Positions 8,802 through 55,826 of a DNA stretch of 64,000 nt are shown here, piece after piece. The translations under genes were made by a program, and so were the position numbers. The notes below the pieces were generated by a model that saw only the letters and a program-made list of their open reading frames with translations, did not search any database and was not told the DNA's origin. This stretch comes from Dethiobacter alkaliphilus AHT 1 (GTDB lineage Bacteria; Bacillota; Dethiobacteria; Dethiobacterales; Dethiobacteraceae). The stretch is from the NCBI RefSeq assembly GCF_000174415.1, contig NZ_ACJM01000014.1, forward strand, positions 1 through 64,000, in the 5' to 3' direction. How positions within the stretch are numbered: the first letter of the stretch is position 1; each line of letters starts with the position of its first letter.

Positions 8802-8845
8802 TTATATTACGGGACAAGCTTTCCAGCTACATAGCTGCAAAGACG

Positions 8846-8873
8846 CCAGACTCTCAGAGTCTGGTTTTTTTTT
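8846..8873 (+). terminator. Intrinsic terminator after HU gene
   Basis: CCAGACTCT pairs with AGAGTCTGG, immediately followed by nine T residues. This is a textbook Rho-independent terminator. Confidence 0.9.
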
Positions 8874-8972
8874 ACTGTAGAAAATTATAACGCTTTTGCA
8901 TTTGCAAAAGCTGCAGCGGTATACAGTACTGAAAGGCGCGCGCTGAGGGAACCGAATAAGCGCGCCTTTCTT
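8873..8972 (+). repeat. Two-hairpin intergenic element, copy 1 (tandem with copy 2)
   Basis: Outer stem TACTGTA (8873-8879) pairs with TACAGTA (8922-8928) and encloses the conserved AATTATAACGC box and an inner hairpin GCTTTTGC/GCAAAAGC (8892-8911). A second hairpin AAGGCGCGC/GCGCGCCTT (8933-8968) has an 18-nt loop containing GGAACCGAATA and ends in TTTCTT. Stem sequences differ from other copies but remain paired; loop sequences are shared. It looks like a dispersed structured RNA or a REP/MITE-type element. No family was recognised. Confidence 0.8.
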
Positions 8973-8975
8973 GTG

Positions 8976-9075
8976 TACTGGTAGGAAATTATAACGCTTC
9001 GCAGTTAGCGAAGCTGCTAAGGTAACCAGTATTAAAAAACACGCATTGAAGGAACTGAATAGGCGTGTTTTTTTT
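8976..9075 (+). repeat. Two-hairpin intergenic element, copy 2
   Basis: Outer stem TACTGGT (8976-8982) pairs with ACCAGTA (9025-9031). The inner hairpin is GCTTCGC/GCGAAGC (8996-9014). The second hairpin AAAAACACGC/GCGTGTTTTT (9035-9072) again has an 18-nt loop, with GGAACTGAATA, and runs into a T tract, so it can act as a terminator. It lies 3 nt after copy 1. Together the two copies fill most of the gene-free 8802-9146 interval; the remainder holds nothing I recognise. Confidence 0.8.
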
Positions 9076-9146
9076 ATTTAATTGCTTATATTTTTTTCCT
9101 TCCTTCGAATACTAACAGTACCGAACAAGAAAGAGGAGGCAAAATA

Positions 9147-13528: not shown

Positions 13529-13620
13529 TACCGAAAATTATAACGCTTGGCAGTTTGTGAAGCTGCTAAGGTAAACGGCACTGAAGCGCGTTAAGGAAGT
13601 TGAATAAGCGCCCTTTTCTT
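13529..13620 (+). repeat. Two-hairpin intergenic element, degenerate copy 3
   Basis: It contains AAAATTATAACGCTT, GAAGCTGCTAAGGTAA and GGAAGTTGAATAAGCG in the usual order and spacing. The outer stem is reduced to CCG/CGG, the inner hairpin has two mismatches and the second stem is only GCGC/GCGC. It lies in the leader region of feoB. Confidence 0.75.
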
Positions 13621-13650
13621 GCATATGTATGCCTATGAGGGGGGACGTCA

Positions 13651-20165: not shown

Positions 20166-20198
20166 TACCGGAAATTATAACGCTTTCGCATATACAGC
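20166..20198 (+). repeat. Two-hairpin intergenic element, truncated copy 4
   Basis: Only the 5' part, TACCGGAAATTATAACGCTTTCGCA, split by its own sequence drift, is present; the rest has diverged. A CCGGTA at 20222-20227 could still pair with the initial TACCGG. Confidence 0.55.
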
Positions 20199-22575: not shown

Positions 22576-22619
22576 CCGACCGCAGCTGCAAGAGCGGTGG
22601 AGACAGCAAATTTTGGAAG

Positions 22620-22650
22620 CAGCCCTGCCAGACAGGGCTGTTTTTCCTTT
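22620..22650 (+). terminator. Intrinsic terminator after mobB
   Basis: CAGCCCTG/CAGGGCTG stem, CCAGA loop, T5CC and further T residues. Confidence 0.9.
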
Positions 22651-22655
22651 TTTTT

Positions 22656-22753
22656 ATACCGGTAAGAAATTATAACTCTCAGTCTGCGAAGCTGCTTAGG
22701 AAACCGGTATCAAAAGCACGCGTTAATGGAACTGAATATGAAGTGCTTTTTTA
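22656..22753 (+). repeat. Two-hairpin intergenic element, copy 5
   Basis: Outer stem ATACCGGT (22656-22663) pairs with ACCGGTAT (22703-22710), perfect 8 bp. The inner hairpin is degenerate (TCTCAG..CTGCGAAGC). The second stem AAAAGCAC (22712-22719)/GTGCTTTT (22743-22750) is perfect, with GGAACTGAATA in the loop. It occupies part of the 22576-23133 gene-free interval, the rest of which holds the mobB terminator, a possible activator site, the sigma-54 promoter and a 150-nt leader. Confidence 0.8.
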
Positions 22754-32331: not shown

Positions 32332-32361
32332 AAGCATGCGTGCCTAGAGGCACGCATGCTT
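32332..32361 (+). terminator. Terminator-like hairpin after cytochrome gene
   Basis: Perfect 13-bp stem AAGCATGCGTGCC/GGCACGCATGCTT with TAGA loop; the T tract is poor (TGTGCTTTCTT). Confidence 0.7.
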
Positions 32362-32371
32362 GTGCTTTCTT

Positions 32372-32468
32372 ATGCTGGAAATTATAACGCTTCGCAGTTT
32401 GCGAAGCTGCTAAGGTAACCAGCATTGAAACGCACGCGTCGAGGGAACTGAATAAGCGTACCTTTCTT
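32372..32468 (+). repeat. Two-hairpin intergenic element, copy 6
   Basis: Outer stem ATGCTGG (32372-32378)/CCAGCAT (32419-32425), inner hairpin GCTTCGCA/TGCGAAGC, and second hairpin with GAGGGAACTGAATA loop and an imperfect stem. It ends in CCTTTCTT, about 40 bp before the ftsH promoter. Confidence 0.8.
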
Positions 32469-32508
32469 AAAGAAACCTTAAAGAAATTTATTGTAGCTGT
32501 ATGAAATC

Positions 32509-36767: not shown

Positions 36768-36800
36768 TACCGGCAGGAAATTAACAGCATTACCCCGGTA
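36768..36800 (+). repeat. Remnant of the two-hairpin intergenic element
   Basis: TACCGG (36768-36773) and CCGGTA (36795-36800) enclose GGAAATTAACAGC, a shortened version of the element with the inner hairpin lost. It runs into the ribosome site of the next gene. Confidence 0.45.
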
Positions 36801-36812
36801 GGAGGACTGTAA

Positions 36813-37166
36813 ATGGAAGTTGAACTGATGCAAATTGAAAATCTGGCTCAGGCCAAAGAAGCCATTGCCAGTGTAGGTGCCAGCCCGGTAAGTGTGAACA
36901 TTATGGCGCCCAAAGCGGTGTTCCGTGTAATTAAAGTGACGGGGGTTTCTGCCACCGCCGCCAACATTCTCAAGCAGGAGATGTTATCCAAAGGCGGGGA
37001 TGCGGCGGTCCACGCCGGTGTGGTAAACTGCCGCCAGAGTAAAAGTGATGTGATTCTGATGGGGACCGTAAAACAGTACCGGCAGGTCATTAAAAGCCTG
37101 CACATCCAGCCGGTGGGCCTGCCAAAGCTGGCGGACAAACTAAAAAAACTGCTGAACGAAGGCTAG
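36813..37166 (+). CDS. Free-standing protein resembling the N-terminal domain of clostridial FolP
   Basis: This 117-aa protein has KAVFRVIKV, TAANILKQEMLSKGGDAAVH (20 residues), VVNCRQSKSDVILMGT and QYRQVIKSLHIQPVGLPKLADKL-type segments. From memory, these are the landmarks of the roughly 120-aa region preceding the TIM barrel in dihydropteroate synthases of many Clostridia. Here no barrel follows: the gene stops and a non-coding repeat comes next. The THF riboswitch just upstream independently links it to folate. A regulatory or binding role for pterin or folate is possible; catalytic residues of DHPS are not in this part. ATG with GGAGGA upstream. Confidence 0.65.
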   Translation: MEVELMQIENLAQAKEAIASVGASPVSVNIMAPKAVFRVIKVTGVSATAANILKQEMLSKGGDAAVHAGVVNCRQSKSDVILMGTVKQYRQVIKSLHIQPVGLPKLADKLKKLLNEG

Positions 37167-55758: not shown

Positions 55759-55799
55759 ATTCCCTGTGGAGCACAGCAGTGCTGTGCGCCACAGGGAAT
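55759..55799 (+). terminator. Long hairpin after the antiporter locus
   Basis: ATTCCCTGTGG/CCACAGGGAAT (11 bp) continued by CACAGC/GCTGTG with AGT loop. There is no T tract; instead it runs directly into a partial copy of the intergenic element. Confidence 0.65.
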
Positions 55800-55826
55800 T
55801 ATAACGCTTTGCAGTCAGCAAAGCAA
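55797..55826 (+). repeat. Two-hairpin intergenic element, partial copy 7
   Basis: GAATTATAACGCTTTGC then GCAAAGC: the conserved box plus inner hairpin (GCTTTGC/GCAAAGC) remain, the second hairpin is missing. Confidence 0.6.

Follow-up and report, generated by a model that had tools for sequence, protein, structure and literature searches.

A structured repeat of about 101 nt, dispersed through the genome of Dethiobacter alkaliphilus, is a miniature, gene-less mobile element and not a fixed regulatory RNA, as indicated by its setting behind intrinsic terminators and by the empty places found in related genomes; that it is a mobile element targeted to terminators we regard as very probable. The element runs from TACYGG to TTTCTTR and comprises two adjacent stem-loops. 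It is dispersed, prefers one kind of target, lies in one orientation relative to it, keeps a conserved structure and has precise ends at one empty site. We propose, with somewhat less than even confidence in the whole, that it is a non-autonomous element which moves as folded single-stranded DNA, with the help of a guide and of an enzyme supplied in trans.

Copies in the window and in related genomes

Within stem 1, TACYGGT/ACCRGTA, lie an inner hairpin and two conserved loops, AAATTATAAC and GCTAAGG, and stem 2, GAAAxGCACGC/GCGTGCyTTTC, carries a conserved GGNAACYGAATA loop; a GTAG is present in only part of the copies. In the window (the whole 64-kb stretch analysed), direct reading and a covariance model revealed five full-plan copies and three remnants, all on the forward strand. 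The sequence-only reading had claimed about eight copies, which holds for these five, at 8873, 8976, 13529, 22657 and 32373, each a match to the model; those at 20166, 36768 and 55797 are partial and lie outside the model matches. Its pairing of outer stems with exact complements was borne out by direct reading (TACTGTA/TACAGTA, TACTGGT/ACCAGTA, ATACCGGT/ACCGGTAT and ATGCTGG/CCAGCAT).

In the first full copy (8873-8973), the outer stem TACTGTA/TACAGTA encloses the inner hairpin, and hairpin 2 leads into TTTCTT, with G as the last base. A guide-like central motif, CTGAAA (8929-8934), lies between its two hairpins and is partly complementary to the right end, TTTCTTG (8967-8973). Immediately 5' of this copy is an intrinsic-terminator-like hairpin with a T-run (8839-8872; arms 8839-8854 and 8856-8871), its presumed target. 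A second full copy (8976-9076) follows in tandem on the 3' side, the two model matches being 3 bases apart. The copy at 13529-13621 is nearly full, with a decayed outer stem, and that at 22657-22753 is full, with right end TTTTTTA and central motif TCAAAA; a full copy of short form, in which the GTAG-like spacer is missing, occupies 32373-32469. By direct reading the latter two are preceded by terminator-like hairpins, one with a T-run (22619-22656) and one with a T-rich tail (32332-32372). Among the remnants, 20166-20190 retains the left end and box before it breaks off, with no T-run in front; 55797-55824 retains only the box and inner hairpin; and 36768-36783 is a left end only, abutting the T-run that follows a THF riboswitch. 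There, between 36600 and 36783, the riboswitch (RF01831), a terminator-like hairpin with T-run and the remnant succeed one another ahead of an ORF at 36813, and the riboswitch expression platform seems to have been the remnant's landing site. The genes beside the window copies are unrelated (MazG, HU, SpoIID, FeoB, MobB, cytochrome c, FtsH and Usp).

A covariance model and counts genome-wide and in relatives had been suggested as checks on the repeat. The D. alkaliphilus genome that carries the window (G000; 3,112,004 bases in 34 contigs) contains the 12-mer AAATTATAACGC 45 times, against 3 for the reversed control. A covariance model built from 15 copies (R1; cut-off E<=0.01) gave 115 matches in this genome, at 113 distinct places, two matches being antisense shadows (C12:30534 and C10:39313); 88 of the 115 were 84-106 nt long, and the remainder were shortened or carried inserts. 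The uniform orientation noted earlier holds inside the window, but the genome-wide matches divide into 69 on the plus and 46 on the minus strand. In genomes of three further genera from this family, the matches number 92, 21 (G010) and 16 (G002). R1 found matches in 8 of 39 genomes, G000 included, and a further model, R2, found them in 7 of 97 genomes of the class, all from one family; the R1 match in G031 was not recovered with R2. Four of the family's 19 genomes are element-rich (G000, G001, G010 and G002), and three others (G006, G008 and G015) have a single weak match each. Several copies stand at contig ends in G001 (C40, C226, C444, C38 and C128), so that its assembly has probably been broken by the repeat and its copies undercounted. 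Phage, plasmid and viral collections, queried with one copy or one exact pattern, gave no match, and the papers found in a literature search do not describe the element.

The element lies directly behind intrinsic terminators

Copies were parsed by length, start, central motif and flank, which 72 of the 115 matches in G000 and 53 of 89 in relatives allowed; removal of 13 tandem copies left 112. A hairpin with a T-run (<= -8 kcal/mol, with five T in eight) lay upstream of 83 of these 112; among control stretches taken 350-400 nt upstream the count was 1 of 108, and among shuffles it was 2 of 60. The orientation of the element relative to the hairpin and T-run was constant. TTTNTTR marks the left flank and TTTCTTR the right end. 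Tandem copies, separated by 0-3 bases, have in front of them the first copy's hairpin 2, which is terminator-like. Against our reading stands the L220 copy of G001, which is situated within an AT-rich stretch and not behind a T-run.

None of the 115 matches in G000 fell inside a gene, according to a simple codon-score gene finder. The upstream gene was codirectional in 86 of 108 scored cases and the downstream gene in 84 of 107, while the other 23 of 107 downstream genes were convergent, some within 10 nt. One copy lies inside an rRNA operon (L184 772-868, on G000:C31), between 23S rRNA, whose match ends at 765, and 5S rRNA (914-1030). Another (L048; G000:C1:77535-79065), without the usual T-run, is followed by a tnpB match at a distance of about 1.2 kb. 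In our reading, gene terminators serve the mobile element as safe landing sites, a niche that group IIC introns are known to use.

Occupied and empty sites

Twenty places in G000 could be compared with G010 or G001 DNA in which both flanking genes are adjacent. The relatives lacked the element, as checked with the models, at 15 of the 20 and carried a copy at 5, which rules out strict vertical inheritance; one of the 15 (C13:86505) may retain a decayed left end, and at a few of them the length of the intergenic gap differs much. At C7:171215, beside what by eye is a ribosomal protein L31 gene, removal of 101 nt, including the last base R, made the alignment with G010 free of gaps across the junction, whereas assigning R to the flank cost a one-base gap. 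No target duplication or loss was seen at this site, the only empty one that is clean at base resolution; C3:35357 and L231 have indels close to the junction, and this reliance on one site counts against our reading. At C2:12739/L190 and C18:42875/L193, like terminators in two genera are followed by elements of different subfamilies, which suggests that one target has been used repeatedly. The copy at C15:22650 is truncated in G000 but full in G001, and seems to be an old insertion that both share.

The same ends and the same clean site, without target duplication, could also be produced by site-specific recombination, in which the element, in circular form, would be joined by a recombinase to a site consisting of a hairpin and TTTYTTR, so that TTTYTTR is left at both ends. 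Published work has suggested recombination of this kind, with a TTTAT motif, for the Bacillus cereus bcr repeats, and it would suit both the TTTNTTR on the left with TTTCTTR on the right and the tandem arrays, whose copies lie 0-3 bases apart. The left targets are variable, however, and the strong covariation of both hairpins, set out below, points to recognition as a single strand; we consider recombination unlikely.

A guide-like central motif and a proposed mechanism

The central YTGAAA, which immediately precedes hairpin 2, covaries with the right end TTTCTTR. Where the Y after stem 1 was C, the R after TTTCTT was G in 50 of 55 copies; where it was T, the partner was A in 47 of 63 (the remaining right-end bases being G 4, C 3 and T 9); and a G was accompanied by G in 5 of 6. 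Two bases past Y, G was found with C in the tail in 98 of 103 copies, and A (n=22) with T in 10 and C in 7 (central G/A against tail C/T, Fisher p 5e-8). The base left of the element, which would belong to the target in a transposition model, weakly follows the same rule: central C was preceded by 23 G and 15 A, and central T by 15 G and 32 A (Fisher p 0.0096; p 0.031 when stratified by genome set). This correlation is weak, and within single genome sets it was not significant (p 0.11 and 0.19), a modest result that tells against our explanation.

In the explanation that we favour, the element inserts immediately behind an intrinsic terminator's T-run, in a single orientation and with neither duplication nor loss of target. 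It would move as folded single-stranded DNA, cleaved at each end behind a sequence resembling TTTYTTR, and be acted on in trans by an enzyme encoded elsewhere. The central YTGAAA would pair with the element's own right end and help to select a matching target, by analogy with the guides of IS200/IS605 elements; in IS608, according to published accounts, guides at the hairpin bases pair with the cleavage sites and with the target. A single motif between the hairpins could serve right end and target alike. The stronger version, with one central guide for both and a mover other than a Y1 transposase, an IS110 recombinase, a TnpB partner or a reverse transcriptase, we put forward as a speculation that is unlikely to hold. 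With paired changes in its middle, at its end and perhaps in its target, this very small element offers a way to test a guide-based rule of insertion.

Candidate mobilising enzymes

Matches to Y1_Tnp were found in G000 (5), G001 (2) and G002 (2), and also in element-free genomes; G010 yielded no Y1 transposase even at E<=10, despite its 21 copies. G000, G001 and G002 were not found to share any closely related Y1 protein, in a comparison for which three proteins of element-free genomes (L089, L090 and L101) had been taken in the wrong frame, and none of the five Y1 genes in G000 had an element copy less than about 1.5 kb away. Only one Y1 transposase of that genome is of the short IS200 type, and it has a glycine riboswitch match (L031 1-104, on G000:C22) in its vicinity. 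IS110 was not found in G000 or G001, nor TnpB in G001; RVT_1 had no match in G002, which has 16 copies, and only a broken one in G001. Each of these four candidates (Y1 transposase, TnpB, IS110 and reverse transcriptase) is lacking in one or more of the element-rich genomes, and the mobiliser was not identified among them, although a candidate enzyme could have been lost after the element spread or lie outside the incomplete assemblies. No autonomous copy with a gene between the halves was found among the orphan right halves and left-only copies, which are decayed or fused to terminators. These two results, the missing mobilising gene (with Y1 absent from G010) and the missing gene-bearing copy, weigh against our explanation, as does the left end of IS608, which as described has no outer stem enclosing an inner hairpin.

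A retroposon would require a different enzyme: a transcript ending at the terminator-like hairpin 2 would be inserted behind terminators by a reverse transcriptase, in the manner of group IIC introns. Those introns are reported to sit 3' of intrinsic terminators, which they recognise in the form of single-stranded DNA hairpins; the element's hairpin 2 with its TTTCTT resembles a terminator, and group II introns are carried by G000 and G010. The distribution of RVT_1 described above is contrary to this route; moreover 5' truncation does not predominate, left-only fragments being by eye at least as frequent as right-only ones, and no terminator was seen by eye at the 3' end or the putative 5' end of the G000 intron. 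We therefore rank the retroposon a little below recombination in probability.

Covariation indicates single-strand structure

In a structure-fitted alignment of 103 sequences (A5), double changes occurred in 20 of 24 pairs, with 250 double-change cells compared with 63 in shuffles and at most 42 with the helices slid. In A6, a MAFFT alignment of 60 chosen sequences that was blind to structure, 17 of 24 pairs and 118 two-sided pair-keeping cells were found, against 27.6 when shuffled and at most 15 when slid; kinship among copies inflates such double-change counts. The covariation of outer and second stems around conserved loops, noticed at first in the window copies, was thus seen in both alignments. 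One-sided G.T forms were rare in the stems: once the poorly paired x.y position was set aside, the A5 stem cells comprised 2079 Watson-Crick, 44 G.T, 64 A.C and 73 other combinations (binomial p 0.067 for G.T versus A.C, in the direction of A.C > G.T), both minor classes being ones that misalignment could raise. Selection on RNA pairing would be expected to favour G.T over A.C, and the counts therefore argue against RNA-level selection on individual copies; we read this as a stem structure needed in the active lineage, followed by neutral decay after insertion. In tRNAs drawn by ARAGORN, 39 of 666 pairs were G.T; in the element, 44 of the 2123 standard pairs were (x.y again left out). For A.C mismatches the tRNAs are unusable as a control because ARAGORN draws only standard pairs. 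In one degenerate right half (L291 1551-1721; G000:C13:58050-58220), loop units resembling GAGGAAACTGAA form a threefold repeat.

The sequence-only reading had proposed selection on RNA or single-stranded DNA structure, and had named no RNA family; the preference for terminators and the mobility had escaped it. Rfam gave no match to the element above gathering thresholds, its sole gathering-level match in the window being the THF riboswitch; relaxed E-values at 8860-9085 gave six sub-threshold matches, none near a gathering score. Single-strand structure was upheld by the 118 cells against 27.6, but its RNA version is disfavoured by the precise insertions at terminators, the convergent downstream genes, the themeless neighbours and the lack of excess of G.T (44) over A.C (64), and the single-stranded-DNA alternative fits the data better. 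A regulatory RNA (a leader, a 3'UTR element or a small RNA) held in place by selection is accordingly very unlikely: its covarying stems and conserved loops, the terminator-like second hairpin, the codirectional downstream genes and the copies shared by two genera at five orthologous places would suit it, but position is not kept at 15 of 20 places, copies occur in tandem, and the shared places may hold different subfamilies behind a like terminator (C2:12739, L190). Strong stem covariation in a bacterial repeat thus need not imply a functional RNA.

Relation to known systems

The element was compared with known systems as they are described in the published record (PMC5934647, PMC3733652, PMC7290912, PMC6542083, PMC2229807, PMC3240598 and PMC8266576). 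A MITE with terminal inverted repeats was rejected, the ends TACYGG and TTTCTTR not being inverted and the clean site lacking a duplication. REP sequences and REPINs are likewise dispersed, structured, extragenic repeats and are thought, in those sources, to be moved by HUH enzymes (RAYT, TnpAREP), but they measure 20-40 bp compared with 101 nt here; a REP/RAYT system was also rejected, as no copies flank the five Y1 loci of G000 and GTAG at the hairpin foot is not constant. Group IIC introns, by published accounts, share insertion directly 3' of intrinsic terminators, the hairpin being recognised, whereas the element is far shorter and, with no Rfam match, without group II ribozyme domains, and reverse transcriptase has no match in element-bearing G002.

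The bcr repeats of the Bacillus cereus group are gene-less, interspersed and 100-400 bp long, with 11 to 130 copies of bcr1. Like the Dethiobacter element they are lineage-restricted and end in a short T-rich motif, and the accounts consulted name no mobiliser for them; they differ, on a comparison by description only, in that the Dethiobacter element has terminator targets and two covarying hairpins. The ends-only (PATE-like) derivatives of IS200/IS605, as described, share hairpins, insertion 3' of a short target, absence of duplication and guide-like complementarity. Correspondingly, the element lies 3' of a short sequence (TTTNTTR) without target duplication at the one gap-free empty site, and its putative guide, YTGAAA, stands 5' of the right hairpin and covaries with the right end TTTCTTR. 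It departs from them in having its guide between the hairpins and in ends that are absent from the surroundings of the five Y1 genes of G000; neither a parent IS bearing such ends nor a Y1 in element-rich G010 was found. The element, then, represents a new family of miniature, structured mobile elements that target terminators, and its mechanism is most likely single-strand and guide-assisted.
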